A stretch of 25,128 nucleotides of DNA from a virus, in IMG/VR virus record IMGVR_UViG_3300046007_004212, positions 1 through 25,128 of that record. The stretch is one strand, 5' to 3'. Each line of letters opens with the position of its first letter. Position 1 is the first letter of the stretch. A model generated the notes under the pieces. The model was not told the origin of the DNA. It searched no databases and was given only the letters and a program-made list of their open reading frames with translations. Below, one piece after another: positions 12,376 to 25,092 of this stretch. The position numbers and the translations under genes were made by a program.

Positions 12376-12877
12376 TTGTAGTTGTGTCCTTAATATGTAG
12401 GTAGTCAACAAAATCGTTGTTGAGTAACACTGCGTTAGATCTCTTGTCCCGCATCAACTGAATCGCATCAGCAGAAGAGTATCCTTCAAGCATGAGGGCA
12501 AGACCCATCGTTAAGCTAGAACGGTTAATCCCAGCTTGACAACGAATCAATACTCGCTTGCCAGATTTCCAAGCGGCATGTGCAAATGCAGCTGCCTCAT
12601 GAAGTGAAGCGTAATCCGCATTGCCCTCAAGACCTGAGTCGTAAAAGCCATAACGAAGTTCTTGCACAAACCAGTCAACTGGATTTGCCCAAGCGTAAAG
12701 AGTTACTACCGTATCGAAATCATCTTTAGTGATAGCACGAGATGTATGAATGTTTGCTGCATCCTCAATCGTGTCATCATCATCTGTTCCACCAAGAAAT
12801 AATCCTGGAAGTATCTCACTCCATAGGGGGAAGTCCCAGTCAATATCGTGTACTGGTGCGTATGAAGCATTAGTCAT
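12365..12877 (-). CDS. Dual-specificity/tyrosine phosphatase-like protein
   Basis: This 170-residue protein carries the Cys-based phosphatase signature as RCQAGINRS (112-120), with nucleophile C113 and R119. The usual His before Cys is Arg here, a change that may alter the thiolate pKa. The N-terminal WSEILPGLFLGG (19-30) is the typical opening strand of dual-specificity phosphatases. D80 in YGFYDSG is a candidate general acid. The start at 12877 has GGAGGGTAGTA in front and lies 2 bases past the upstream stop. The gene overlaps the HDAC-like gene, so both are made together. Substrates might be phosphoproteins, nucleotides or RNA 5' ends. Confidence 0.82.
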   Translation of the reverse strand: MTNASYAPVHDIDWDFPLWSEILPGLFLGGTDDDDTIEDAANIHTSRAITKDDFDTVVTLYAWANPVDWFVQELRYGFYDSGLEGNADYASLHEAAAFAHAAWKSGKRVLIRCQAGINRSSLTMGLALMLEGYSSADAIQLMRDKRSNAVLLNNDFVDYLHIKDTTTNEK

Positions 12878-15041: not shown

Positions 15042-15263
15042 CTAGGTAAGCTTTTGGTCCAGTTCAACGAAGCTAATCGCCCACTTAGTAAGAGCTGCCT
15101 CGCTACGATTCTTGTGATGACCGCAGAGGTAGATCTCTCCGTTAGCTCCAGTAATCTTCCATACAGCGCGAGCAACACGGCACGAGTCGCATTCGACCCA
15201 GCTGGAAAAAGTTTCTTTCGCTTCTTGTTCGAGCTGGACTTCTTCTTCCACAATCGACTCCAT
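15042..15263 (-). CDS. DUF7455-like small zinc protein
   Basis: This 73-residue protein starts at 15263 behind AAAGGAGAGTC. After an acidic N-terminal helix (MESIVEEEVQLEQEAKETF) it carries CDSC (25-28), a beta segment (ARAVWKITGANGEIYLCG) and CGHH, the zinc site typical of the DUF7455 family found widely in actinobacteria and their phages. It is a single gene between a terminator and the next promoter. A -10-like TATGATAGT lies about 20 bases upstream. Confidence 0.75.
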   Translation of the reverse strand: MESIVEEEVQLEQEAKETFSSWVECDSCRVARAVWKITGANGEIYLCGHHKNRSEAALTKWAISFVELDQKLT

Positions 15264-15341: not shown

Positions 15342-15584
15342 TTAAGCTGAGTAAGCGATTGTGTAACCTTTGTCGAGCTTTGATTGGATCTTATCCATCG
15401 CTGCCCAACGTGCTCCTTGTGCGCTTGAAAACGTTTTTACCTGACGTTGGCGACTTGGCTTCTCTGCCATTCCCCACACTGCGGTAAACGAATTTCCATC
15501 AACTGAAAGTTCGTAAACTTTCTTCTTTCCTAGAGCTCCGCGTGTTCCATCGGATACTTTTACTAGGCACCATTTTGTCTGCAC
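15342..15584 (-). CDS. Stand-alone WGR-domain protein
   Basis: The GTG at 15584 is chosen because GGAAGGACACAAA stands directly before it, as at other genes here; an upstream in-frame GTG would place this site inside the coding region. The 80-residue product is almost only a WGR-like domain: YELSVDGNSFTAVWGMAEKP, VKTFSS, then AQGARWAAMDKIQSKLDKGYTI. WGR domains in PARPs and MolR-type bacterial proteins bind nucleic acid ends or aid ligand sensing. In the central motif the Arg of W-G-R is replaced (WGM). A DNA-end or NAD-related role in infection is an inference. Confidence 0.7.
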   Translation of the reverse strand: MQTKWCLVKVSDGTRGALGKKKVYELSVDGNSFTAVWGMAEKPSRQRQVKTFSSAQGARWAAMDKIQSKLDKGYTIAYSA

Positions 15585-15627
15585 TTTGTGTCCTTCCGTC
15601 GTTTTCACCGGTTGTGGTGATAAGCTA

Positions 15628-16698: not shown

Positions 16699-17296
16699 TA
16701 TTTGGTCGATTCTCTCTTTTAATAACTTTGTAAGCTTTGCTCTGTCCAGTCTTAGTTTCCTTGTAACCGTACCGAGTAAATCTAAACTGTATCGCGCCAT
16801 GGGTAATACCCAGAAGCTTTGCAAGACGGTAGACGCTCACACCTTGCTGAGTATGAGCTTCCCAGAGGAGAGCGGTATACTCCTCAGCTTCAGCTCTTCC
16901 TTTTGTGTGGTCCCACCGAATCGATTGTGCGATTGGCTGTAGCTCTTTTAGTCGAGCAAGAGTTTCTGGCTTCGGTTCTGTATGCTCCGCTCCGGAGTAC
17001 ACTATAACTTCTTCAGTCGGTAACTCTGGAACTGGATAGCTTCCTGGAGCTTGCTGCACTAGGTACACCAACTCGGGGATAGCTTGAGTTTCAAGTTGTC
17101 GCACCCGCTCGCGTGTAACTCCTAATGAGTCTCCCACAGCTTGAAGCGTCCAGCCTTTAGCTCGAAGAGCGTAGATGTAAGCCGCACGTAGTTCTCTTTC
17201 CTTCGCAGGAATAAGACCGAGCGCAGTAGCAACTACGCTAGGTAGTGTGAGATGCTGACGCTGCTGCACCAAAGATTTCTTATAGATTCTTTTCAT
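16691..17296 (-). CDS. Sigma-region-4-like HTH protein with second HTH
   Basis: This 201-residue protein has KGWTLQAVGDSLGVTRERVRQLE (47-69 in two blocks), matching the region 4.2 HTH of sigma-70 factors. A second HTH lies near residues 152-173 (GVSVYRLAKLLGITHGAIQF). The linker is acidic and Pro-rich (PVPELPTEEVIVYSGAEHTEP in pieces). The ATG shares one base with the stop of the 52-codon gene upstream (TAATG). There is no region 2, so it is not a full sigma factor; it more likely binds DNA as a regulator or docks to host RNA polymerase. It shares its layout with the HTH protein at 5626-6114. Confidence 0.75.
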   Translation of the reverse strand: MKRIYKKSLVQQRQHLTLPSVVATALGLIPAKERELRAAYIYALRAKGWTLQAVGDSLGVTRERVRQLETQAIPELVYLVQQAPGSYPVPELPTEEVIVYSGAEHTEPKPETLARLKELQPIAQSIRWDHTKGRAEAEEYTALLWEAHTQQGVSVYRLAKLLGITHGAIQFRFTRYGYKETKTGQSKAYKVIKRENRPNNE

Positions 17297-17454
17297 TAGT
17301 TGTGATTCAAGAAATCTTCAAGTGCCTGGTCGATAGCGTCCTTCACTAATTCGGAAAGCTTTGCCAGCTCTTCGAAAGAGAATGTTCGCTCTGTCATTTC
17401 TTCGAGGTCCTCAACAGAGAGACTTGAAACGTAAACCATTTTGCTTTTACTCAC
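17296..17454 (-). CDS. Small acidic helical protein, 52 aa
   Basis: A GTG at 17454 follows ACGAAAGGACTACC. The product begins VSKSKMVYVSSLSVEDLEEM and continues as helix (FEELAKLSELVKDAIDQALE) to a TAA that overlaps the next ATG by one base. It is predicted to be all helical and acidic. It heads the operon with the sigma-like HTH protein and could be its modulator, an inference from coupling only. Confidence 0.65.
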   Translation of the reverse strand: MSKSKMVYVSSLSVEDLEEMTERTFSFEELAKLSELVKDAIDQALEDFLNHN

Positions 17455-17481
17455 GGTAGTCCTTTCGTCGTTTGTTGGTTA

Positions 17482-17490
17482 ATTATAACA
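17482..17490 (-). promoter_or_regulatory. Extended -10 promoter for the 17454-16274 operon
   Basis: Minus-strand TGTTATAAT followed by TAACC, 27 bases before the GTG. It lies 3 bases past the stop of the upstream gene (17493). Confidence 0.6.
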
Positions 17491-17492
17491 TG

Positions 17493-17795
17493 TTACACTA
17501 GAAAATGTACACGTATTTGGTGCTCGACAGTAGCGAGTGCGATAGGCGACTCTCCGCCTACATGCCAATGATACATTTCATCGAGTTCAGGCGTCCCATC
17601 TTCGTAACGCTTCCAGTCATAGATAGTTGCGACAGTTCCGTCGTCAAACTTAAGACACCATTCAGTGGTTACCTTGTCGCCTTCACCGTAGTACTCAGGT
17701 TCGCCGAATACTTCGACGAGCTTACGCAGAGTAGTCTCTGTGTACCCTTGAAGGGAAGTCCCTACGGATGCTTCAAGATCTTTTGTAAACTTCAT
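17493..17795 (-). CDS. Hypothetical acidic protein, 100 aa
   Basis: It starts at 17795 behind ACGAAAGGAAACACA. The central block FGEPEYYGEGDKVTTEW followed by LKFDDGTVATIYDWKRY, and the later HVGG, form a pattern I have met in small phage proteins but cannot name. The fold looks like alpha plus a beta sheet. It is a single-gene unit with its own promoter. Confidence 0.7.
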   Translation of the reverse strand: MKFTKDLEASVGTSLQGYTETTLRKLVEVFGEPEYYGEGDKVTTEWCLKFDDGTVATIYDWKRYEDGTPELDEMYHWHVGGESPIALATVEHQIRVHFLV

Positions 17796-17822
17796 TGTGT
17801 TTCCTTTCGTCGTTGTAAGTTA

Positions 17823-17831
17823 ATTATATCA
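17823..17831 (-). promoter_or_regulatory. Extended -10 promoter for the gene at 17795
   Basis: Minus-strand ATGATATAATTAAC, 27 bases before the start and directly after the preceding terminator. Confidence 0.65.
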
Positions 17832-17848
17832 TATAGGTATGACAAGTA

Positions 17849-17869
17849 AGGGCGCCTTTCGGCGCCCCT
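17849..17869 (-). terminator. Terminator hairpin after the gene at 17877
   Basis: AGGGGCGCC-GAAA-GGCGCCCTT type stem: GGGCGCC pairs with GGCGCCC around a GAAA tetraloop on the minus strand, then TTACTTGTC. The U-tract is weak but the position is right. Confidence 0.6.
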
Positions 17870-17876
17870 ACCTGCT

Positions 17877-18131
17877 TTAGTCTTCTATGTCTTGGATTGA
17901 CTCGTTTAGAAGCTCTGTGAACTTTGTGCGGAACTCTTCGACTGCGGTATGAATTACAGCCTCGATGTCGAGAGACTTTAGGAAGTCTTCGATTTCAACT
18001 TCGCCTGCGAGGCTGAACATTTCTTCCTTAACGAGGAACTTTAGCTCACCATCAGCGTCGCGGTCTGCGGCGTCGATAATCTGCTGCACTGCGTTCTCAC
18101 CGAGCGAGAGGCTGTTTGTCATGCTGGTCAT
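17877..18131 (-). CDS. Acidic helical protein, 84 aa
   Basis: The start is the ATG at 18131, six bases after GATTGGAG; the TTG four codons earlier would overlap that site. The protein is strongly acidic and helical (ENAVQQIIDAADRDADGEL, EVEIEDFLKSLDIEAVIH, LLNESIQDIED). It closes the series of acidic cassettes. It is not visibly related to the two paralogous types next door but shares their leader and size. No family is recognised. Confidence 0.65.
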   Translation of the reverse strand: MTSMTNSLSLGENAVQQIIDAADRDADGELKFLVKEEMFSLAGEVEIEDFLKSLDIEAVIHTAVEEFRTKFTELLNESIQDIED

Positions 18132-18164
18132 TTGGATCTCCAATCCGTAGGTGTTGTTAGGTTA

Positions 18165-18173
18165 ATTATATCA
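18165..18173 (-). promoter_or_regulatory. Extended -10 promoter for the gene at 18131
   Basis: Minus-strand ATGATATAATTAACC, 33 bases before the start. Confidence 0.65.
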
Positions 18174-18200
18174 TGGTTTTTAATAAATGCCTACGCGAAA

Positions 18201-18229
18201 CGCGCGGCATGCAGAGCAGAGGCCGCGCG
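18201..18229 (-). terminator. Terminator hairpin after cassette A1
   Basis: An 8-base-pair CGCGCGGC/GCCGCGCG stem with a 13-base loop is followed on the minus strand by TTTCGCG and AT-rich sequence. It lies 12 bases past the stop at 18241. Confidence 0.6.
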
Positions 18230-18240
18230 GACGCGATAGT

Positions 18241-18597
18241 TTATTCGAACGTGTCGACGTCGATTTGAGTTTCGAGGTTATACGAAAGTTCGGCGAAGTC
18301 AGTGTAGAGAGCGTAAACGTTATTTTCGAGCGGAACGAAAGTTTCGTTGTCGTCGAATTCGTCGAAGCCGGAATGGCCGATGAAGTGGTCAAGATGTTCG
18401 GCAGGGATGTTCAGGATTTGATAATCGTTGTAGCCGGCATTGACGGTGGAAACGAGTGTGATAGGCGAGTTAGGAAAGCGTTCGGCAAGAAATTGTAGAG
18501 CTACGGCGACGCAGAAAGCGTCGTTGAGCTTGACGTCGTGATTTGAGAGTGCAGGCATAGTTGCAGTTGTTTTTACGAAATCGTTTGCATTTTGCAT
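18241..18597 (-). CDS. Acidic cassette protein A1, 118 aa
   Basis: The ATG at 18597 follows AAAGGGGCC. By my count the protein has about 19 Asp/Glu against 3 Lys/Arg. It is clearly related to the protein at 19041-19334: both open MQNxNDF and share an xxYxxYxxxxIPA block, a Phe-rich middle and LENxVYxxxxxxxELxxNL. The family is unknown to me. The high negative charge and small size resemble DNA-mimic anti-restriction or anti-CRISPR proteins, but this is analogy, not homology. The codons favour C-ending forms (TTC, GAC, AAC) with many TCG/CGA junctions, unlike the flanking genes, which suggests separate acquisition. Confidence 0.7.
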   Translation of the reverse strand: MQNANDFVKTTATMPALSNHDVKLNDAFCVAVALQFLAERFPNSPITLVSTVNAGYNDYQILNIPAEHLDHFIGHSGFDEFDDNETFVPLENNVYALYTDFAELSYNLETQIDVDTFE

Positions 18598-18631
18598 GAA
18601 AGGCCCCTTTGTTTGTTTTTGTAATAATTGA

Positions 18632-18640
18632 ATTATATCA
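18632..18640 (-). promoter_or_regulatory. Extended -10 promoter for cassette A1
   Basis: Minus-strand ACATGATATAATTCAA, 34 bases before the start. Only a weak AT-rich hairpin separates it from the upstream gene's stop. Confidence 0.65.
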
Positions 18641-18663
18641 TGTTTAATTATAAATACGAACGT

Positions 18664-18933
18664 TTATAAAATGTTAATTTCGTCGAGGAGTGCAGTTGGC
18701 AAGTGGGAAGCGCAGAAGGCGACGGAAGAGTCGATTGTGTAGAACGGAGTCGTAATGTTGAAGCTGGCAGAGCAAGCGTCGCAAGAAATGAGTGTGTCGT
18801 TTGTTTTTGCGAGAAGAAGAGAGAATTCAGAAAAGTCGAAGTCGATTTCAGAGTCGACGTAATCAGTAGTGAAGTCGATTTTTGCGTATGAGTCGTAATT
18901 GTTATTACGGATATTTGTTTGTGTGGTTGTCAT
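18664..18933 (-). CDS. Acidic cassette protein B1, 89 aa
   Basis: The start at 18933 is the ATG after AATTGGAGATTTTC. The N-terminal 40 residues are rich in Asn, Asp and Thr (DFTTDYVDSEIDFDFSEF). The C-terminal half has CDAC (51-54) and CASH (74-77) followed by LPTALLDEINIL. The protein at 19437-19715 ends the same way (C49, C54, CLSHQPQALRDFIAAL), so the two are paralogues with a probable zinc site. About 13 acidic against 3 basic residues. The function is unknown. It is a single-gene transcription unit. Confidence 0.7.
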   Translation of the reverse strand: MTTTQTNIRNNNYDSYAKIDFTTDYVDSEIDFDFSEFSLLLAKTNDTLISCDACSASFNITTPFYTIDSSVAFCASHLPTALLDEINIL

Positions 18934-18966
18934 GAAAATCTCCAATTCGTAATTTGTAATAAGTTA

Positions 18967-18975
18967 ATTATATCA
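18967..18975 (-). promoter_or_regulatory. Extended -10 promoter for cassette B1
   Basis: Minus-strand ACATGATATAATTAAC, 33 bases before the start, with the AT-rich tail of the previous terminator directly upstream. Confidence 0.65.
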
Positions 18976-19007
18976 TGTTTATTATGTTTTTTGTAAATAC
19001 GCGAAGG

Positions 19008-19032
19008 GCCGCGCAGTTGTGAGCTGCGCGGC
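19008..19032 (-). terminator. Terminator hairpin after cassette A2
   Basis: A perfect 9-base-pair GCCGCGCAG/CTGCGCGGC stem with a 7-base loop is followed on the minus strand by CCTTCGCGTATTTAC. It begins 9 bases past the stop at 19041. Confidence 0.75.
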
Positions 19033-19040
19033 GCGAGCGT

Positions 19041-19334
19041 TTAGATGTAATCAGGAAACAGAGATTGAAGTTTAGAAATCGCAGCAGGGTTGAGATTTGC
19101 AGCGATTTCAGAAGGATTAGCGAGAAAAGAATAAACGTCGTTTTCGAGTTTTTCGTCAGTATCGGCGTTAAAGTAAAGATCGAGAAAGCCAGATGAGTCG
19201 GCAGGGATACGGAAAGTCATGTAGGTGTCGTAAGAGTTAGGGTACGAAGTATTTATGTATTCGATGTTTGTAAAGCCGGATTCAGAAATAAATTCAAAAG
19301 CTACGGAAGACGCGAAGTCGTTTGTGTTTTGCAT
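19041..19334 (-). CDS. Acidic cassette protein A2, 97 aa
   Basis: The ATG at 19334 follows ATTGGAGATTTCATC. It is a paralogue of A1: MQNTNDFASSVAFEF, then SYDTYMTFRIPAD, LENDVYSFLA and EIAANL. Its C-terminus LQSLFPDYI resembles SLSEIFPDYED at the end of the 73-residue protein at 19830, which may be a more distant relative. About 14 acidic against 3 basic residues. No membrane segment or signal peptide is seen. Confidence 0.7.
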   Translation of the reverse strand: MQNTNDFASSVAFEFISESGFTNIEYINTSYPNSYDTYMTFRIPADSSGFLDLYFNADTDEKLENDVYSFLANPSEIAANLNPAAISKLQSLFPDYI

Positions 19335-19370
19335 GATGAAATCTCCAATTCGTTAGTTTGTAATATGTTT

Positions 19371-19379
19371 ATTATATCA
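19371..19379 (-). promoter_or_regulatory. Extended -10 promoter for cassette A2
   Basis: Minus-strand ACATGATATAATAAAC, 36 bases before the start. Confidence 0.65.
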
Positions 19380-19404
19380 TGTTTATAATAAAATAAATAC
19401 GAAA

Positions 19405-19424
19405 GGCCCAGCGTGAGCTGGGCC
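19405..19424 (-). terminator. Intrinsic terminator after cassette B2
   Basis: An 8-base-pair GGCCCAGC/GCTGGGCC stem with a TCAC loop is followed on the minus strand by TTTCGTATTTATTTTATT. It lies 12 bases past the stop. Confidence 0.85.
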
Positions 19425-19436
19425 AGTCGCGGCAGG

Positions 19437-19715
19437 TTACAGGGCTGCGATAAAGTCGCGGAGAGCTTGTGGCTGATGTGACAGGCAGTTAGTCATGATG
19501 GACTGGACAGGCGAGTCGTCGAGGAACGAAATTGACGGCAAGGTTTTTTTGTTGCAGTCGTCGAATTCGCAGTCGTAGTCAGTGTCAGTGAAGTTGATTT
19601 GGACGTTGTAGACGTCGTTGTTTTCGGCAGCGTCAAGGTCGTTGAAAAGCATTGGGTCGATTTCAAGAACGAGTGCGTCAGCGGTTTTTTCGATGATTTT
19701 GATTTGTGCGGACAT
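19437..19715 (-). CDS. Acidic cassette protein B2, 92 aa
   Basis: The ATG at 19715 follows GACTGGAGACATC. The N-terminus is a short strand and helix region (MSAQIKIIEKTADALVLEID). The middle is Asp-rich, and the C-terminal half holds C49, C54 and CLSH (77-80) with QPQALRDFIAAL, matching B1. About 16 acidic against 5 basic residues. The Cys/His pattern suggests one zinc ion (C-x4-C here, C-x2-C in B1). The function is unknown. Confidence 0.7.
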   Translation of the reverse strand: MSAQIKIIEKTADALVLEIDPMLFNDLDAAENNDVYNVQINFTDTDYDCEFDDCNKKTLPSISFLDDSPVQSIMTNCLSHQPQALRDFIAAL

Positions 19716-19732
19716 GATGTCTCCAGTCGTTA

Positions 19733-19752
19733 TATTAACGTATTCGTTAATA
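19733..19752. promoter_or_regulatory. Inverted repeat in the leader of cassette B2
   Basis: TATTAACG and CGTTAATA form an 8-base inverted repeat with a 4-base centre, just downstream of the -10 element. The position suits an operator at the transcription start. It shares the CGTTA half-site with 20066-20092. Confidence 0.4.
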
Positions 19753-19757
19753 AATGA

Positions 19758-19766
19758 ATTATATCA
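19758..19766 (-). promoter_or_regulatory. Extended -10 promoter for cassette B2
   Basis: Minus-strand ACATGATATAATTCAT, 42 bases before the start. Confidence 0.65.
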
Positions 19767-19792
19767 TGTTTATAATAAAAATATTACGAAAA

Positions 19793-19816
19793 GCCAGAGC
19801 GTTTTCGCGCCCTGGC
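19793..19816 (-). terminator. Intrinsic terminator after the gene at 19830
   Basis: A 9-base-pair GCCAGGGCG/CGCTCTGGC stem (one G-U in minus-strand RNA, loop of 6) is followed by TTTTCGTAATATTTTTATT. It begins 14 bases past the stop. Confidence 0.85.
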
Positions 19817-19829
19817 CTCTCGCAACAAC

Positions 19830-20051
19830 TTACTTTATTTCGCCATCTTCGTAATCTGGAAAAATCTCTGAGAGACTTTGGTAGAATTTTTCAGAAGGTG
19901 AAGCGGTAAGCTTAATTGTTGGCCAGCTATTCGCGCCGTTCGCGCTTTCCAAAATCTGAACTGAAATTACTCCATCAATTCCTAGGAGATTTTCAACTGT
20001 TTGGTCTAGGCTGATCTCTTCAGTAACTACATCGAATTCATACATCTTCAT
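19830..20051 (-). CDS. Acidic cassette protein A3 (possible distant A type), 73 aa
   Basis: The start at 20051 follows ATTGGAGCTTAAG; a second Met two codons on is possible. The sequence has strands EFDVVTEEISLD and VISVQILESANGANSWPTIKLTAS, then a helix ending SLSEIFPDYEDGEIK. The ending resembles that of A2 (LQSLFPDYI), but overall similarity is weak and I rate the kinship as tentative. It is acidic like its neighbours but uses more ordinary codons. It is a single-gene unit. Confidence 0.65.
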   Translation of the reverse strand: MKMYEFDVVTEEISLDQTVENLLGIDGVISVQILESANGANSWPTIKLTASPSEKFYQSLSEIFPDYEDGEIK

Positions 20052-20065
20052 CTTAAGCTCCAATC

Positions 20066-20092
20066 AACTTATAACGTAATTCGTTATAAGTT
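20066..20092. promoter_or_regulatory. Perfect 11-base inverted repeat at the transcription start of A3
   Basis: AACTTATAACG and CGTTATAAGTT surround a 5-base centre, directly abutting the -10 element. It could be a repressor operator covering the start point, or a 5' mRNA hairpin. Confidence 0.5.
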
Positions 20093-20093
20093 A

Positions 20094-20102
20094 ATTATAT
20101 CA
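20094..20102 (-). promoter_or_regulatory. Extended -10 promoter for cassette A3
   Basis: Minus-strand ACATGATATAATTAAC, 42 bases before the start. The motif contains the last two codons and the TAA stop of the upstream gene (ATG ATA TAA). Confidence 0.7.
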
Positions 20103-20388
20103 TGTTTTCAGGAGCAAAGCCGGTACTTAGCCGCTTTTCTAGCTCCTGCATCTTTTCAACGACTGCAATGTCCCAGTTAACATCTGTCCGGCACTTCGGG
20201 CAGTACTCTGGCCAGAAGTCATCAGGAGTAGATGTGTCGATGATGACGGTAGACTCGCCGCAGAAGAGCTCGGGACTTTGATCTCTAAAAAGAAACCAGT
20301 TAAGACGCTGGTCCTTTGTTAAAGAGTTCCACGGACGCCCTGGACCTTTACAGTCAAGAGTCATAAGGACCGGTAGCTCGCCGCTCAC
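20095..20388 (-). CDS. Zinc-binding hypothetical protein, 97 aa
   Basis: The GTG at 20388 overlaps the TGA of the preceding gene (GTGA). The N-terminal half reads LDCKGPGRPWNSLTKDQRLNWFLFRD. The middle is FCGESTVIIDTSTPDDF, and CPKCRTDVNWD completes a likely zinc site (C-x-G, then C-x2-C). The C-terminus is a helix (AVVEKMQELEKRLS). It ends inside the next promoter motif. The function is unknown; such zinc proteins are frequent among phage early genes. Confidence 0.7.
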   Translation of the reverse strand: MSGELPVLMTLDCKGPGRPWNSLTKDQRLNWFLFRDQSPELFCGESTVIIDTSTPDDFWPEYCPKCRTDVNWDIAVVEKMQELEKRLSTGFAPENMI

Positions 20389-20567
20389 TGCACAAGCTCA
20401 GCTTCTGGGAACCAGCGGAAGAATGTGAAGAGCAGCTGGGCGTAATCGCCAGCCGTCATCTCTTCAGTGAAGGCCGCAATCTCATCGTGGCGACCTAGCT
20501 TCTTTAACTCGCGCTGACCTGCCGCAATGATGGCAAACGCGTTGCCGTCTGAAATCTGTACTGCCAT
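20385..20567 (-). CDS. Hypothetical helical protein, 60 aa
   Basis: The ATG at 20567 follows ACGGAGGACAAC. A longer reading from 20651 would consume the structured leader and lacks a ribosome-binding site. The protein is MAVQISDGNAFAIIAAGQRE followed by helices (HDEIAAFTEEMTAGDYAQLL) and an aromatic end (FFRWFPEAELVQ). It is coupled to the zinc protein by GTGA overlap. No family is recognised. Confidence 0.65.
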   Translation of the reverse strand: MAVQISDGNAFAIIAAGQRELKKLGRHDEIAAFTEEMTAGDYAQLLFTFFRWFPEAELVQ

Positions 20568-20672
20568 GTTGTCCTCCGTCGTTTGAATGTTAGGACGCGG
20601 CAGGAGCTGGGATTGTTTCGTGCCTTCTGCAGAAGGTGGTTGTTTGACCACCAGTGCTTCCCTGCCGCGTTG
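20568..20672 (-). ncRNA. Structured 5' leader before the 60-residue gene
   Basis: Between promoter and start lie about 105 bases closed by a perfect 10-base-pair stem, ACGCGGCAGG/CCTGCCGCGT (20595-20604 with 20661-20670), whose 5' arm begins at the predicted transcription start. Inside are a GGTGGT/ACCACC hairpin (20635-20652) and a 14-base palindrome CCTTCTGCAGAAGG (20623-20636), which share two bases and so may be alternatives. The ribosome-binding site follows the closing stem. This looks like a cis-regulatory RNA or a 5' protective element. No known riboswitch consensus is recognised. Confidence 0.5.
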
Positions 20673-20677
20673 GTTTA

Positions 20678-20686
20678 ATTATATCA
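20678..20686 (-). promoter_or_regulatory. Extended -10 promoter of the structured leader
   Basis: Minus-strand ACCTGATATAATTAAACC, 110 bases before the start at 20567 and 3 bases past the upstream stop at 20689. Confidence 0.65.
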
Positions 20687-20688
20687 GG

Positions 20689-20877
20689 TTACTCTGTCTC
20701 GATGTACACAGTAGAGCCGTGTTTCGTGATGATGTCCTCGAACTTGTCGCCTTCAATGGATTCAAGCTCGATGCCTTCCGGCAAGTCTGATTCCTTGAGT
20801 ACGAATACGTAGTCCGCATCCGAGCCAACCCACCAGTCACCGTTAGGTGACGCGTACCACACTCTTTCCGTAGCCAT
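20689..20877 (-). CDS. Hypothetical acidic protein, 62 aa
   Basis: The ATG at 20877 lies 2 bases after the previous stop, with GGTGGG just upstream; a Met 12 codons earlier is inside that gene. The product is beta-rich (MATERVWYASPNGDWWVGSD, YVFVLKESDLPEG) with an acidic C-terminus (GSTVYIETE). The opening resembles small single-sheet phage proteins, but I cannot name a family. Confidence 0.65.
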   Translation of the reverse strand: MATERVWYASPNGDWWVGSDADYVFVLKESDLPEGIELESIEGDKFEDIITKHGSTVYIETE

Positions 20878-20879
20878 GG

Positions 20880-21032
20880 TTAACCCACCTGGAACGCATC
20901 GCAATAGCGACATTGGTACCAGTCGCCAAGCTTTGAGTCTTCTACGTACTCGTGGATGTAGTCGTGCTGGTCATCGGTAGCGCAAAAGATATCGTCACCG
21001 CGCCGTATAAAGCTGCGTGCCTTTGTTTGCAT
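20880..21032 (-). CDS. Small zinc-finger-like protein, 50 aa
   Basis: The ATG at 21032 follows ACGAAAGGACGACC. The product begins MQTKARSFIRRGDDIFCATD and ends with CRYCDAF. The three Cys and nearby His residues could bind one metal. The basic N-terminus and Cys-x2-Cys end suggest contact with nucleic acid. It lies behind the longest structured leader in the window and is coupled to the 62-residue gene. Confidence 0.65.
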   Translation of the reverse strand: MQTKARSFIRRGDDIFCATDDQHDYIHEYVEDSKLGDWYQCRYCDAFQVG

Positions 21033-21168
21033 GGTCGTCCTTTCGTCGTTTAGGTGTTCAAGGGCCGCGGTGATACTTCGGCCAATCTTGCCAGAGGTCT
21101 CTTGCGAGACGTGGACTCGGGCGTCGCATGTTCCGCCTAGTTTAACTAGTGGCTAGCACCCTTGAACG
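21033..21168 (-). ncRNA. Structured 5' leader, about 135 bases
   Basis: A perfect 9-base-pair stem GTTCAAGGG/CCCTTGAAC (21159-21167 with 21056-21064) starts at the predicted transcription start and encloses about 95 bases. Within it are GCCACTAG-loop-CTAGGC (21135-21153), GTCTC-GCAA-GAGAC with a GNRA tetraloop (21097-21110), and a GCCG/CGGC stem (21064-21082). The ribosome-binding site comes after the closing stem. The fold is a multi-branch junction. I looked for cobalamin, glutamine and tRNA features and found none. A riboswitch, protein-binding leader or separate processed RNA are options. Confidence 0.55.
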
Positions 21169-21173
21169 AGTTA

Positions 21174-21182
21174 ATTATATCA
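21174..21182 (-). promoter_or_regulatory. Extended -10 promoter of the 21168-20689 unit
   Basis: Minus-strand ACCTGATATAATTAAC. It includes the final codons and stop of the subtilisin gene (CTG ATA TAA). Confidence 0.7.
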
Positions 21183-22095
21183 GGTTGTACTGCTTTTGGA
21201 CCACATCTGTGACCGAACGGTAAGCCTTGTCCAGCTTGGACTGGATGGTTGCCCATAGGGAGTCGTATGTTCCACCTTCTGAGAGGGACTGAGTCCACTT
21301 AGACGCCACCGCAACCGTTGCTGCTGATGTTCCAAGCACAAGGGTGTTTGACCCATCAAGCAAAGTCGTGTTGTGACGGCCTAAAGCGTAGAGATCTAGG
21401 TCCGCGCCACCGTTAGAGTTTGGCATGATTGGATACACCCAACCGGTGACTGCACGAATCGTGTAGCGCGTATCCGTTGCTCCTACCGTAATTGCTTCTG
21501 GTATACATGCCGGATAGTCAACTTTGATTTGGTTCGAACGGTTGCCCGCTGCTGTGAACACACCAATGTTGCTTGCCTTAAGCTCTACAATACGAGACTG
21601 CAGTGGAGTTTCAATAGGGCATGCCGCTTCTTTGTACGCCCGTCCCATTGAGATAGAGACTGCACCGACGTTTAGTCGAGCTGAGTTAGCCGCAACCCAA
21701 TCAAGAGCAAGCTGCACCGCTTTGGTTGTGTACGTATTGGCGAAGCCTTTGTCCGACTTGCCGATGATACGAATCAACACGAATCTAGCAGAAGGGTTGA
21801 CCGCGTTAGCTACCGACGCCATCTGCGTGCCGTGATTAAACGTCCTGTCCTTAGCTCCGTCCGTTGCCGCTAGTGCTGCTGCACCTGGGCCAGTCATTGA
21901 TGCTTGCCCGTTAGGACACTTGCCGTGCTCGATAAAGCATGCCTCATCAACTACCTTGCCCGCAAAGAACGGGAGCTGCGTGTTGAATCCGGAGTCAATG
22001 ATGACTAGAGTCTTTGGTTGCGTTGCCTGCGCTGATGGAGTCAGCCCTGCCGCAAGAGCAAGAATGATTCCGGTGATTGCTAGTTTGGTTTTCAT
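21175..22095 (-). CDS. Secreted subtilisin-like serine protease (S8 family)
   Basis: This 306-residue protein starts at 22095 behind AAAGGACGAAC; a Met nine codons earlier would place that site inside the gene. Residues 1-25 form a signal peptide (KLAITGIILALAAGLTPSAQA). The S8 triad is complete: D34 in VIIDSG, H88 in NHGTQMASV and S257 in LGTSAATVAVA, with oxyanion N185 in TAAGN. VSISMG and AITVGATD match the S8 core strands. There is no obvious propeptide beyond a few residues and no extra binding domain. It follows the MoxR/VWA genes. It could process virion or envelope proteins, degrade outside proteins or aid spread; the role is not clear from sequence. Confidence 0.88.
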   Translation of the reverse strand: MKTKLAITGIILALAAGLTPSAQATQPKTLVIIDSGFNTQLPFFAGKVVDEACFIEHGKCPNGQASMTGPGAAALAATDGAKDRTFNHGTQMASVANAVNPSARFVLIRIIGKSDKGFANTYTTKAVQLALDWVAANSARLNVGAVSISMGRAYKEAACPIETPLQSRIVELKASNIGVFTAAGNRSNQIKVDYPACIPEAITVGATDTRYTIRAVTGWVYPIMPNSNGGADLDLYALGRHNTTLLDGSNTLVLGTSAATVAVASKWTQSLSEGGTYDSLWATIQSKLDKAYRSVTDVVQKQYNLI

Positions 22096-22132
22096 GTTCG
22101 TCCTTTGTTTGTCGTTTGTCATTAAGTTAGCT

Positions 22133-22172
22133 CCGGTGCAGGTATGCTTTGACGGAAGAGTTCCCGCACCGG
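22133..22172 (-). other. Intercistronic hairpin between the VWA and subtilisin genes
   Basis: CCGGTGC/GCACCGG (7 base pairs) encloses 26 bases including a GGAA-CTC-TTCC mini-stem on the minus strand. No U-tract follows, so it is more likely an mRNA processing or stability element than a full terminator. Confidence 0.4.
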
Positions 22173-22179
22173 AATGTTG

Positions 22180-24003
22180 TTAGGCCGCGTTCCTGCGACC
22201 AATCTTTGATAGAGCTTCCGCAGCTGCCTGACCGATAGTCACTGCTGCATCCGTTGGGTCCTGAACCTTTGCAAGAACTACTGCTGATGTTCCTGAAGTG
22301 ATTCTGTCTGCGTATCCACTGCGCTCGTACTTGTCGAACGGTAGCCACAGAACTGCAACACCTGCCTTGTCACATTCACGCACCCACTTTTTCGCATAGT
22401 CACGCTCTGCATCTGTGTAGCAACCATCGCTCACAACTACAAGTAGTCGAGCGCCAGTGCCATGTAGAAGATTAAGTCCACCATCAAGAGCCTTGAATGC
22501 TTTGTCGAACTTTTCAGTTCCATCAGGCGCAGTATAGACGTTAACCTTGTCAAGGTGCTGACCTGGCTTGAGTGTAGGGAATACATCTTCGCCATAGTAG
22601 ACCATAGCAGTCTGCGCTTGAACACGTCGACCTGCTTCAGACATCGCCCATGCAGTAACTGCCATGGGATTCATCGCAGAAGACATTGAGCCTGAGATGT
22701 CTACCATCACACCAATCTTGAGTGTTGGGTCATCTGTGTGCTTGCGAACTGTACGCTTCCAAGGTTCTGCATGCTGCATTGAACCTTGAGCGCGATATGC
22801 AGCTTCCTGCACAATCGAACGAGTGCGGAGACGTCCTGGTGGAAGAATACTAGAGATCTCGTGTTCATCGCGCTCACGATACTTCGCACGTTCTAAGAGA
22901 TTCGCAATCTTGACTGCTGCTGCACGCTCAGAAGGTAGTGGCTCACGAATCTCAGCAAGACGTGAACGACTGCCTGCAGTGACTCCCATCTCGGAAGTAG
23001 TCTTGCCAAAGACATCATTCGCAACCTTCTTGTGGTCCTTCTGCTGACTTGCAGCTTGGGAACGCATGTCGACAACCTTCTGCCAATCTTCCTTCTGCTC
23101 CTGGTTCTCGACTTCATCACCAACAGCAATTGCAACGTCACCTGCAGCTTCATCAAGAGCTTCCTTAATGTCTTCGATGATGCCATCAACAATGACAAGA
23201 ATCTCTGACCCAGGTCCTCCTGGAGTTGGCTTCTCTGGTTCACCGCGCTCGACAGCAAGGTCTGCAAGAAGCTTTTCCCACTCGCGAGCAAGTTCGTAGA
23301 GGTTGCGTGGGTCTGTGTGATTGTCATGCGCTTGGAAGCGAATCCATATATCACGAAGACTTGCGTAGACTTCATCGCCAAGAAAGTCGACGATGATAGC
23401 TTTGATCTCTGCAACATCTGCATTGTCAAGTGAACCTGCATCTGCACGAGCGCAAGTAAGAGCTGCGAGTCCTGCGACTGCACGCACGCCATGAGACAAG
23501 TGCTCATCTGCAGATGCGTTGATGTCATGTAGAACGATTTCCAACGCGCAAGCGCGAAGGAAGACTCTGTTAGCTGGGAAGTTCACAACACCATGATGTT
23601 CGATGCGTGATTCTTCGAGAGACATAAGGGCTCTGTACTCATTCATTGAAAGTTCTTCAAGAGCCTTCTCAAGATTAAAGCGCGAGTAGCGAGCATGGAG
23701 TGCCTCATGGAAGATAGCACCTGCAGCCTTCGGCCAATCGAAAAGTGTGTCGCGCTTGCTTAGGTCACCAATAGTCTCTGGTGAAGTACCTGCGCCGAAC
23801 GCAATATCAACATTGACCTCGACTTCAGCCACAGGTGGGTTGAAGCAAGCTGGGGTTGGTCCTCCAGCTCCGGGTCCTACGTATGCAACGATGTCTGAGC
23901 GTCCTGCCCAGATATTGACAAGGTTGCCAATCTGTGCGCCAACGGGGAGCCACTCAGCTGGAGTGCGCTCCGCGCGTGTCGCGGAATACTTAATGTGTCC
24001 CAT
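22180..24003 (-). CDS. VWA-domain protein with HExxH metallopeptidase-like motif, partner of the MoxR ATPase
   Basis: This 607-residue protein starts at 24003 behind ACGGAAGGATAGAC; an in-frame start 22 codons upstream overlaps the promoter. HEALH (99-103) with a downstream LEESRIEHH (129-137) resembles the zinc site of the metallopeptidase-like regions found in VWA proteins of CobT/DUF2201 type. An acidic Gln/Glu linker spans about 260-325. The C-terminal VWA domain has a near-perfect MIDAS, DISGSMSS (435-442), then LLVVVSDG with a second Asp. VWA proteins paired with MoxR/CobS-type ATPases act as metal-inserting or remodelling chaperones. The cobalamin link is by family only. The target may be a virion or host complex. 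Confidence 0.82.
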   Translation of the reverse strand: MGHIKYSATRAERTPAEWLPVGAQIGNLVNIWAGRSDIVAYVGPGAGGPTPACFNPPVAEVEVNVDIAFGAGTSPETIGDLSKRDTLFDWPKAAGAIFHEALHARYSRFNLEKALEELSMNEYRALMSLEESRIEHHGVVNFPANRVFLRACALEIVLHDINASADEHLSHGVRAVAGLAALTCARADAGSLDNADVAEIKAIIVDFLGDEVYASLRDIWIRFQAHDNHTDPRNLYELAREWEKLLADLAVERGEPEKPTPGGPGSEILVIVDGIIEDIKEALDEAAGDVAIAVGDEVENQEQKEDWQKVVDMRSQAASQQKDHKKVANDVFGKTTSEMGVTAGSRSRLAEIREPLPSERAAAVKIANLLERAKYRERDEHEISSILPPGRLRTRSIVQEAAYRAQGSMQHAEPWKRTVRKHTDDPTLKIGVMVDISGSMSSAMNPMAVTAWAMSEAGRRVQAQTAMVYYGEDVFPTLKPGQHLDKVNVYTAPDGTEKFDKAFKALDGGLNLLHGTGARLLVVVSDGCYTDAERDYAKKWVRECDKAGVAVLWLPFDKYERSGYADRITSGTSAVVLAKVQDPTDAAVTIGQAAAEALSKIGRRNAA

Positions 24004-24034
24004 GTCTATCCTTCCGTCATTGATTGATGAGTTA

Positions 24035-24043
24035 ATTATATCA
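24035..24043 (-). promoter_or_regulatory. Extended -10 promoter for the VWA gene
   Basis: Minus-strand ACCTGATATAATTAACTC, 31 bases before the start. The ATPase and VWA genes are therefore not only dependent on a shared transcript. Confidence 0.65.
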
Positions 24044-24045
24044 GG

Positions 24046-24112
24046 TGTAGAGGGGTCCCAGGCACCCACACCGAGAACCCCTCCGGCCCACAGCCAAGAT
24101 TAAATCTTGGCT
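24046..24112 (-). terminator. Hairpins between the MoxR and VWA genes
   Basis: AGCCAAGAT/ATCTTGGCT (about 24092-24112) spans the ATPase stop codon. A second stem, GAGGGGT/ACCCCTC with a 20-base loop, follows. Neither has a clear U-tract, so termination would be partial at best. Confidence 0.35.
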
Positions 24113-25092
24113 GGTTGGCAACCTTCACCGTAGACTCTAGTGAACACATCCGCAACGACGGGGCGGTCCAGTTCTGGAGCTGCTGCGATGATGTTCGCAA
24201 TTGCGAACTTGGTGCCAAATGTCTTTGTGATGTCACGGAATGCGAGTAGTTCACGCATCTGTGGGCACCAGCCAGTTTCACCTGATTGCTGACGACGTGA
24301 CAAGTTCTGTGCAACTGTCACAATCTGTTGAGGTGCGCCAAGCTTCTTGGCAAGCACCCAGTCGGTAGTCATCTCTGCTTGTATTACGAAGCGAGATAGA
24401 AGAGCTTCAGAGAGTCGAACTCCGGGAGCATTCGGATTGGTTGCTGCGATTACGTAGAACCCTTCCTTAGCTTTTACAGTTCCGCGCTCTGGGTTTGCAG
24501 TGACAGTGTACTCACCACGACCATCCATGAGTCCATATACACCTGCCATGACCTTAGGGTCAACAAGCCCACCTTCATCAATGAAGAATGGTCTGCCTTC
24601 TTCGGCAGCTCGAAGCAACGGACCATCGACCCATTCGAATCCACCTGTAGGTGTTTGCACATACCCACCAATGAAGTCTGATAGTTCTGTATCGCCAGTA
24701 CCAAGAACAGTGATAACTTCATCACCATACGCAGCTTCAACGAGTGCAGTCTTGCCACAACCTGGAGCTCCGTACAGAAGAATGTACTGCTGGTTCTTGC
24801 GCGCTTCGCGAAGGACCATGACGTCGTCATGCTCTCCCCACTTGCGGGCATGGTACTTGTCACCATTAGGGCGCTTGTATGTAGAGTCTTCCCCTACGAA
24901 TGCATCTGCTGATATCACTGGAATAACCTTTGTCTTGGGTGTTGGACGATTGCCAACTTTACCCTGTGGTTGAACTAGTGAGTCGAGAGAAGATGAGAGT
25001 TCATCGTTCATCTGCTGAGCTGCAACAGTAAAGATACTGTCACTTAAGTTCGGGTAGATCTTGTTTAAAGATTCTACTAATGTTGTTGTCAT
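24100..25092 (-). CDS. MoxR/CobS-type AAA+ ATPase
   Basis: This 330-residue ATPase starts at 25092 behind AAAGGACAAAGTAA. The AAA+ elements are in order: Walker A GAPGCGKT (108-115), the GTGDTELSDFIGGY segment with its MoxR-like insert, Walker B FFIDEG (169-174), sensor-1 AATNP and the SRF arginine-finger region (233-235). The N-terminal 90 residues are unique. The pairing with the VWA gene directly downstream is the classical MoxR-VWA (or CobS-CobT) arrangement, in which ATP hydrolysis drives remodelling or metal insertion into a client. Such pairs are known in some large phages, but their clients there are not established. Confidence 0.9.
   Translation of the reverse strand: MTTTLVESLNKIYPNLSDSIFTVAAQQMNDELSSSLDSLVQPQGKVGNRPTPKTKVIPVISADAFVGEDSTYKRPNGDKYHARKWGEHDDVMVLREARKNQQYILLYGAPGCGKTALVEAAYGDEVITVLGTGDTELSDFIGGYVQTPTGGFEWVDGPLLRAAEEGRPFFIDEGGLVDPKVMAGVYGLMDGRGEYTVTANPERGTVKAKEGFYVIAATNPNAPGVRLSEALLSRFVIQAEMTTDWVLAKKLGAPQQIVTVAQNLSRRQQSGETGWCPQMRELLAFRDITKTFGTKFAIANIIAAAPELDRPVVADVFTRVYGEGCQPAKI

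Follow-up and report, generated by a model that had tools for sequence, protein, structure and literature searches.

Mobile regulatory cassettes are known from T4-type phages as PeSL (promoter early stem-loop) elements (PMC4503421, citing Arbiol 2010 and Comeau 2014). The section of that paper cited here describes terminator and promoter modules between small genes, which are shuffled among related phages at the modules. Another precedent concerns composition. CpG and UpA are suppressed in vertebrate and plant RNA viruses, and in the cited part of PMC5659819 this dinucleotide avoidance runs across coding and non-coding viral sequence. The locus described here, in a 25,128-nucleotide stretch of viral DNA (IMG/VR record IMGVR_UViG_3300046007_004212, hereafter the window), recalls both systems. 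It is an array of small one-gene units whose leaders, ORFs and 3'UTRs avoid G after a purine and keep G beside C, beyond what protein sequence and codon usage account for. To our knowledge, no known process explains this purine-G rule.

Table 1. Features of the cassette array and its surroundings in the window.
Feature	Coordinates	Strand	Remarks
A3	19830..20051	-	ordinary gene left of the slot, not A-type
Extended -10 box of B2	19755..19766	-	
Purine-G-poor tract	18192..19722	-	the four longest RGR-free gaps of the minus strand: 19722-19409, 19344-18943, 18941-18608, 18606-18192
Cassette gene B2	19437..19715	-	ORF, 92 aa, C-x4-C...CLSHQP; RG 4, RGR 0
Terminator hairpin of B2	19405..19424	-	found by terminator scan; also behind X in G004
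Extended -10 box of A2	19368..19379	-	
Segment A2-B1-A1	18230..19338	-	gene N in its place in record G002
Cassette gene A2	19041..19334	-	ORF, 97 aa; related to A1; RGR 0
GC hairpin behind A2	19009..19031	-	missed by terminator scan; also behind Z (G009) and B1 (G004)
Extended -10 box of B1	18964..18975	-	
Cassette gene B1	18664..18933	-	ORF, 89 aa, CDAC...CASHLP; RGR 0
Extended -10 box of A1	18629..18640	-	
Cassette gene A1	18241..18597	-	ORF, 118 aa; RGR 0
GC hairpin behind A1	18201..18229	-	loop CTCTGCTCTGCAT; missed by terminator scan
C	17877..18131	-	ordinary gene right of the slot
D	17493..17795	-	conserved anchor gene, used for fetching relatives

The five minus-strand ORFs of the original prediction, starting at 20051, 19715, 19334, 18933 and 18597, were all borne out; the array itself reads B2, A2, B1, A1 (19715-18241). 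Each gene was said to have its own promoter, and an TGATATAAT box does stand before every one of the five, including A3 (20091-20102). Allowing up to three mismatches, TGATATAATTAA matches the window 48 times against 17.5 expected, the largest count in 100 shuffles being 29. The box also stands before 131 ordinary ORFs in 11 loci and is thus no hallmark of the array. The GC-rich terminators claimed for most of the genes were found as hairpins behind A3, B2, A2 and A1, and none was found behind B1. Among these hairpins, only those of A3 and B2 satisfied the terminator scan, whose total of 9 is no more than chance (10.0 expected). An Rfam search of 17000-21500 gave one match, far below the gathering score. 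The predicted arrangement of separate transcription units with paralogues is supported. A unit consists of an extended -10 promoter, a short Shine-Dalgarno leader, one small acidic ORF and, usually, a terminator-like GC hairpin.

The 11 relatives carry from zero to four such cassettes each, in differing orders and mixes: X alone (G001), B2-N (G002), B2-A1 (G003), X-Y-A1-B1 (G004), A1-B1-B2 (G005), one A-type gene alone (G006), A1-B2 (G007), B2 alone (G008), B2-Z (G009), A1 alone (G010) and none found (G011). This order and content speaks against the duplicated two-gene module that had been proposed. The pattern is one of gain, loss and exchange in piecemeal fashion. The flanks of the window and of G002 are 97.8% (1801 nt) and 99.5% (1701 nt) identical, and identity is unbroken over 98 nt beyond the stop of B2 and over another 98 nt upstream of where C starts. 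In this one pair the breakpoints were resolved to the base, and they fall at a start codon behind a shared leader and at a shared hairpin, the A1 hairpin being the right-hand one. Divergence of the ORFs thus begins at the second codon, the 98 matching bases being followed by a one-base indel and CATCATG. Identical hairpins also stand behind unrelated ORFs in different records; that of A1 recurs behind N in G002 and behind Y in G004. With breakpoints at the end of a shared leader and at a shared hairpin, the regulatory ends of the cassettes look like recombination handles.

These tailed phages form a freshwater (lake-water) group whose hosts are probably Actinobacteria. The window terminase is nearest to those of DSL-LC01 (79%) and of Microbacterium phages. 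DSL-LC01, the nearest named phage, has one similar gene (34961-35302), in which RGR is absent (9.4 expected) and purine-G merely reduced (8 against 20.3 expected).

Kinship of A1 and A2 was confirmed (BLASTP 2e-6 in a set of 19 proteins; Z 7.7, with 0 of 300 shuffles scoring as high). For B1 and B2 the pairwise signal is weak (E 0.035, Z 3.1, 1/300) and the relationship is carried by intermediates, three Cys being invariant in nine sequences; the two proteins are members of a wider Cys/His-motif group. The suggestion that A3 is A-type failed (Z 0.3 to A1 and 1.9 to A2), and its AG+GG count is ordinary (26 observed, 26 expected). Neither an absence of A1-A2 and B1-B2 similarity nor the fold of a virion protein, on either of which the original prediction was to fall, was encountered. 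Homologues of A1 occur at 64-89% in five further distinct records and at 35% in one more; those of B2 at nine loci, or six records once the window's twin and duplicates are removed; those of B1 in L012 and L014. All five proteins are strongly acidic, as predicted, with a pI of 4.05 (the program's floor) and three to five Lys+Arg each. Acidity is not special to the array, the neighbours C, F and J having pI 4.05-4.08.

No cassette protein passed the Pfam cut-off, among ten window proteins and then nine cassette proteins or homologues. For the ten window proteins, the best E of a cassette protein in PHROGs was 0.099, and PADLOC, which contains defence proteins, gave zero matches for ten proteins at E up to 0.01. 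Searches of phage records with A1 and B2 (tblastn, none at E 1) and of genome contigs with the alignments labelled A4 and A2 found no homologues. Against PDB sequences, the alignments labelled A5 and A4 matched only 1ubd_C (E 0.044) and 2ex3_B (E 0.82), which we take as chance. AF2 models (pLDDT 74.0 for A1, 87.8 for B2) compared with the PDB by Foldseek and VIA-align 2 gave no clear match (best Z 4.5 and 3.9, respectively), which does not establish a new fold. DUF7455 (PF24254), likewise a small protein of the same phage with two Cys followed by Cys/His, was considered for the B proteins and rejected: its HMM was unmatched by B1, B2 and the homologues tried, and the hhalign probability was 1%. 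The window gene at 15042-15263 does match DUF7455 (E 1.4e-8). A host-takeover or anti-defence function of the cassettes is plausible from their variability, small size and acidity.

The composition of 18241-19715 had been said to differ from the flanks, and the difference is far stronger than that. In 20 cassette ORFs (6327 nt) RGR occurs 0 times, with about 160 expected. A set of 23, which adds B1 and B2 of L014 and the DSL-LC01 gene, contains one RGR; these 23 are not independent, representing about ten families with homologues counted without down-weighting. The counts leave out IMGVR_UViG_3300044911_002081 (same array as the window), 3300042154_001714 (array as in G002), 3300042463_001194 (as in G004), 3300027963_000336 (as in G008) and B2 of G002, identical to the window's. 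The rule is independent of reading frame: in the 20 ORFs AG is depleted at all three codon positions (0.17, 0.15 and 0.08 of expected), and GG stands at 0.88, 0.35 and 0.07. RGR, GAG, AAG, GGT and GTG are among the most depleted trinucleotides, and AGT, TAG and CAG reach 0.05, 0.06 and 0.14 of expected.

Synonymous choices follow the next base. Four-fold codons preceding GA, GG or GT end in A or G in 0/233 cases, against 898/1639 in the ordinary genes that these phages carry; before GT alone the count is 0/55. Preceding GC the fraction is 9/97, and preceding A, C and T it is 49%, 54% and 31% (ordinary 53%, 44% and 49%). Two-fold codons preceding GA end in C 168 times and in T twice (ordinary: C 225, T 280). 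Within-gene synonymous shuffles gave Z of -8.8 for AG, -6.8 for GG, -3.4 for TG and +13.6 for CG; ordinary genes avoid GG mildly too (Z -11.0, 2201 against 2365). C-adjacent G makes up 848/979 in cassette ORFs, 174/194 in 3'UTRs and 33/35 in leaders. In the ordinary set it is 4261/10599 (131 ORFs), with 116/249 and 24/48 at 21 genes with a box downstream; this set was picked by G >= 0.19, so the contrast in G content is partly built in.

Free of selection by G are the four longest RGR-free gaps of the window, a whole-record scan (G006 and G007 covered to 20 kb) and a scan of 4420 ORFs in overlapping loci, in which ranking by Poisson tail intersperses some long or repetitive ORFs with the cassettes. 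The limits of the gaps coincide with Shine-Dalgarno sites, with one hairpin and with the point where the next unit begins; most cassettes retain GGA or GGG in their Shine-Dalgarno sequence. Among 2004 ATG ORFs of 12 records, filtered differently from the 4420, 20 pass: 19 are cassettes, and the remaining ORF overlaps one in another frame. A scan of 2609 ORFs from further loci left ten below 0.45 of expected, of which five are cassettes, one is an overlapping frame and four, 45-51 aa long, lie in other contigs. The rule is not a by-product of low G, since three low-G ORFs outside the array exceed the expected purine-G (29/17.4, 53/37.5 and 53/36.2).

The strand matters: CT, the complement of AG, is not depleted in cassettes, and avoidance of a CRISPR PAM or of restriction was rejected on this ground. 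An antisense ORF was discarded as well, because 22 of 23 ORFs have stops in all three antisense frames (A1 of L014 has one open). Phage tRNAs (Thr-TGT, Pro-TGG and Arg-TCT in DSL-LC01, Gly-GCC in G001 and Met-CAT in G003, among 16 pieces scanned) do not explain the codon choice.

Several processes could produce such a rule. Cassette ORFs might have been purged of internal Shine-Dalgarno-like motifs and RNA structure for high or clean translation. Most of the depleted RGR, GAG, AAG, GGT and GTG are pieces of the Shine-Dalgarno strand, and cassette mRNA folds half as strongly as ordinary mRNA (23 ORFs of each kind: -14.4 and -26.8 kcal/mol per 100 nt, respectively), but the weak folding is mostly compositional (mean Z against synonymous shuffles -0.53). 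The cited section of PMC5100845 reports that Shine-Dalgarno motifs are depleted in an expression-dependent way, while that of PMC6107199 disputes a specific depletion. The avoidance found here is not confined to motifs that pair with the anti-Shine-Dalgarno, nor to ORFs: the 0/55 before GT and the scarce AGT, TAG and CAG concern motifs that, by reasoning rather than computation, hardly pair with it, and the rule extends into the 3'UTR. We regard translational selection as rather unlikely. Import of the cassettes from an unsampled element or host of such composition, before amelioration, seems to us somewhat less likely still. Their codon usage is sharply unlike that of the rest of the phage (in a set of 21 that includes three low-G genes from outside the array), and the searches of phage records and contigs found no homologues outside the group. 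However, resident homologues keep the rule at dS 0.11-2.0 (dN/dS 0.06-0.46), one gene of a phage whose listed GC is 53.6% lacks RGR altogether, and a donor obeying such a frame-independent rule would call for an explanation in turn.

A strand-specific mutational process eroding purine-G only here, such as deamination of template-strand C outside CG or GC, is the least credible of these alternatives. It would suit the strand asymmetry, the G to A direction in GAG, AAG and CAG codons (the same set of 21) and the spacers within arrays, which also obey the rule. Yet loss of template C cannot yield the replacement of T before G by C or the raised CG. Neighbouring same-strand genes with the same kind of box are untouched.

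Our preferred explanation, which we consider a serious possibility though short of probable, is a variable slot of autonomous cassettes whose mRNAs are under RNA-level selection and whose products serve host takeover or counter-defence. The rule would be read on RNA: a process in the infected cell would recognise or cut G when it follows a purine, or when it follows U with no C close by, and cassette mRNA would escape. Cassette genes would therefore stay expressed when other messages do not, and products that are takeover or counter-defence factors would explain both why the genes turn over fast and why they must be expressed under attack. The rule about C next to G is absent upstream of the array's first promoter: just before boxes, C-adjacent G is 10/23 without a cassette upstream (counting here an L015 unit that B2 precedes) and 21/25 inside arrays, one box (L012 4814) lying inside a leader. 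In the 25 nt before boxes purine-G was counted 5 times in 575 nt against 33 in 525. Because purine-G is rare before boxes too, the rule is unproved to stop at transcript ends inside the array, and this weighs slightly against an RNA reading.

Perhaps nuclease evasion is the source of the RNA-level selection. It is tempting to propose, though we hold it rather doubtful, that purine-G-free mRNAs of counter-defence cassettes survive or stay translated while a purine-G-reading, RNA-targeting activity, putatively a host defence RNase or a phage shut-off nuclease, destroys other messages. In the cited parts of the papers on RNase Y, mycobacterial RNase E and RelE, no purine-G preference is found: RNase Y prefers cutting after G (PMC4608709) or at GA (PMC11780869), cleavage by mycobacterial RNase E falls 5' of C (PMC10641625) and RelE prefers C before G (PMC5224514). 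Evasion of these three enzymes was rejected, because GA, C and CG are plentiful in cassette RNA and they would cut it well.

Compared with PeSL, the array has a repeated terminator-promoter module between small ORFs, B1 being without a hairpin and only the hairpin of B2, among those of the in-window cassettes, satisfying the terminator scan. Gene content between modules differs among close relatives, and breakpoints lie at or inside the module in the window-G002 pair. Unlike PeSL phages, the window phage is related to DSL-LC01 and Microbacterium phages rather than T4, and its box is an extended -10 and not a T4-type early promoter; the cited section of PMC4503421 does not mention a purine-G rule. 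The exchange works like T4 PeSL shuffling, and promoter-terminator modules that act as recombination handles thereby gain an example from a probable actinophage. Unlike the CpG/UpA suppression described in the cited part of PMC5659819, the avoidance here concerns a DNA phage, AG, GG and partly TG, and is restricted to a few genes. A near-absolute, frame-independent and strand-specific dinucleotide rule that is confined to one exchangeable slot points to a hitherto unrecognised pressure acting on phage genes and, in the simplest case, on their mRNA. If a nuclease reads it, a new defence or shut-off specificity is predicted, together with a simple scan for genes that need expression under it. 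Such evasion by counter-defence cassettes would provide a sequence signature for finding these genes in any phage, and would parallel, in bacteria, the CpG suppression of animal viruses.

What is surprising in the array, formed by the four minus-strand cassettes B2, A2, B1 and A1, is a rule against purine-G (AG or GG) whose reader is only hypothetical. The four cassettes are the longest tracts free of AGA, AGG, GGA and GGG (RGR) anywhere on the minus strand of the window. Twenty cassette ORFs (6327 nt) contain no RGR trinucleotide, where base composition predicts about 160, and a 23-ORF set contains one. AG is depleted at every codon position, including across codon borders. GG is depleted at 2-3 and 3-1, and there is hardly any depletion at 1-2, where Gly codons carry it. 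The rule is strand-specific, as CT shows no depletion. Four-fold codons preceding GA, GG or GT never end in A or G in the cassettes (0 of 233; in 131 ordinary ORFs from these phages, 898 of 1639). Ahead of A, C and T, the share ending in A or G is 49%, 54% and 31%, versus 53%, 44% and 49% in the ordinary ORFs. T preceding G is also avoided, except with C before the T or after the G. Overall, 848 of 979 Gs in cassette ORFs have an adjacent C, versus 4261 of 10599 in ordinary ORFs.

Synonymous codon shuffling does not reproduce this rule. Against within-gene shuffles, cassettes give Z values of -8.8 for AG, -6.8 for GG, -3.4 for TG and +13.6 for CG; in ordinary genes the values are +7.3, -11.0, +8.3 and -10.8, indicating that mild GG avoidance is general and that the AG, TG and CG trends are reversed. 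Nor is low G sufficient for the rule: outside the array, three low-G ORFs from these phages exceed the expected amount of purine-G. With dS up to 2.0 within cassette families, the rule has persisted despite extensive synonymous substitution. It is also specific: only 20 of 2004 ATG ORFs from 12 records have purine-G below 0.42 of expected, of which 19 are cassettes and the last is an overlapping ORF within one. No ORF fell below this filter in two more distant records carrying gene D, the anchor used to fetch relatives (G014, G015).

The rule extends beyond the ORFs. C-adjacent Gs account for 33 of 35 in cassette leaders and 174 of 194 in 3'UTRs, versus 24 of 48 and 116 of 249 for ordinary genes with a downstream box (extended -10 promoter). 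Immediately before the box the count is 25 of 42 overall; over a slightly longer stretch it is 21 of 25 with a cassette upstream and 10 of 23 without, which indicates that the C-beside-G rule ends upstream of an array's first promoter. Purine-G itself is scarce everywhere in the AT-rich pre-box stretch (5 in 575 nt versus 33 in 525), and spacers within arrays obey the rule as well. That the rule is strictly confined to RNA is thus likely, not proved.

We infer that the rule is read on RNA. Its reach into untranslated regions and its indifference to frame lead us to favour the idea that cassette mRNAs would thereby escape an RNA-level activity during infection. Selection centred on translation is the main rival, since the avoided sequences include Shine-Dalgarno-like motifs and the folding of cassette mRNAs is half as strong as that of ordinary mRNAs. 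The cutting preferences of RNase Y, mycobacterial RNase E and RelE, as far as the published accounts describe them, do not match the rule, which speaks against any simple nuclease version of RNA-level escape. A purely mutational cause is unlikely, as T before G is likewise replaced by C. Open papers on dinucleotide avoidance in phage genes or on internal Shine-Dalgarno avoidance, searched with few terms, held nothing like the rule, which to that narrow extent appears undescribed.

The five ORFs of the original prediction and their TGATATAAT boxes were recovered, and the encoded proteins are indeed acidic (pI at the program's floor). Neither box nor acidity defines the array, since many genes nearby have them too. 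A dN/dS of 0.06-0.46 in the A1, B2, B1 and X families (dS 0.11 to 2.0; X is a cassette gene of relatives) shows purifying selection, and the cassette genes thus encode real proteins. The kinship of A1 and A2 is firm. That proposed for B1 and B2 is weak pairwise and is bridged by intermediate sequences; three Cys are invariant across nine B-type sequences (five records; Y, Z and N of relatives among them), eight of which carry C-x-S-H near the C-terminal end. A3, the gene left of the slot, had tentatively been taken for an A-type protein and is related to neither A1 nor A2. AlphaFold2 models were confident for B2 (pLDDT 87.8) and fair for A1 (74.0), and comparison with PDB structures gave no clear match for either.

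The host of the window phage (25,128 bases, an IMG/VR virus record) is probably actinobacterial, judging by its terminase large subunit, which shares 79% identity with its DSL-LC01 (OQ999401) counterpart and 58-62% with those of the next matches, Microbacterium phages. DSL-LC01 is described as a phage of 129 kb, recovered by assembly of metagenomes from Dishui Lake, with Actinomycetia as predicted host (PMC10611076). By inspection, both share an ATPase gene, a 600-residue protein, small genes and terminase in that order. DSL-LC01 has one ORF of the purine-G-poor kind, unrelated to the cassettes, in which RGR is absent and purine-G merely reduced (8 versus 20.3).

Other features were noted (table). 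A 29-residue stretch is 52% identical between D and M (E 3.4e-5 in a set of 19 proteins). By the search used, D has 103 relatives in IMG/VR; six lie in named phage records (four Flavobacterium, one Prochlorococcus, one unassigned). The leader repeats sit just downstream of the -10 boxes, similar ones precede A1 in relatives, and they are possible operators. Long RGR-free tracts with about 3-9% G on one strand occur in a 14.7-kb contig (IMGVR_UViG_3300022188_000095), which resembles the mitochondrial genome of an animal, deposited among viruses.

Coordinates of the array and of other features noted in the window and elsewhere
Feature	Record	Position	Strand	Remark
Array B2, A2, B1, A1	window	19715-18241	-	
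Gene D	window	17493-17795	-	
Gene M	window	15342-15608	-	
DUF7455 protein	window	15042-15263	-	PF24254, E 1.4e-8; same small-gene region as array
Three larger genes (315, 629, 330 aa)	window	21175-25092	-	upstream of small-gene region; by eye like secreted serine protease, VWA-domain protein, AAA ATPase; last two apparently syntenic with DSL-LC01
Inverted repeat, A3 leader	window	20067-20091	-	ACGAA/ACGT core
Inverted repeat, B2 leader	window	19735-19750	-	ACGAA/ACGT core
Purine-G-poor ORF	DSL-LC01	34961-35302		
Low-complexity ACGC/CACTGC tract	OQ999401	46291-46771		480 nt without RGR; mostly within annotated hypothetical protein, among late genes
13-nt loop of A1-type hairpin, different stem	IMGVR_UViG_3300035130_000092	near 12833		apparently unrelated contig

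The array occupies a variable slot. Relatives were fetched with A2, A1 and D (80 loci taken of the 103 found with D), with alignments of the A and B families, and with box, leader and hairpin as DNA queries. Most neighbouring genes in the closest relatives (G002, G010, G001, G011) have 81-100% identity to their window counterparts, the exceptions being I (66% in G010, 74% in G011), F (43% in G010), H (57-70% in G001 and G011) and M (68% in G011). The slot holds B2-A2-B1-A1 in the window, B2-N in G002, A1 in G010 and X in G001; no cassette was found in that of G011. More distant relatives have X-Y-A1-B1, A1-B1-B2, B2-A1, A1-B2, B2-Z, B2 or one A-type gene, often with other small genes on either side. 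This lack of fixed order or company argues against the duplicated two-gene module first proposed.

Between the window and G002, exchange of cassettes is resolved to base level. Beyond the B2 stop, 98 nt are identical without a break, across hairpin, box, leader and Shine-Dalgarno; then come a one-base indel and CATCATG, after which the ORFs diverge. Identity restarts at the A1-type hairpin, 98 nt ahead of gene C on the right of the slot, and identity in the flanks is 97.8% (1801 nt) and 99.5% (1701 nt). Moreover, each of the array's three hairpin types recurs 3' of unrelated ORFs. With such breakpoints and reuse, the hairpin, box and leader look like recombination handles, a role already described for PeSL elements of T4-like phages (PMC4503421). 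We regard the array as a new variant of promoter-terminator cassette shuffling.
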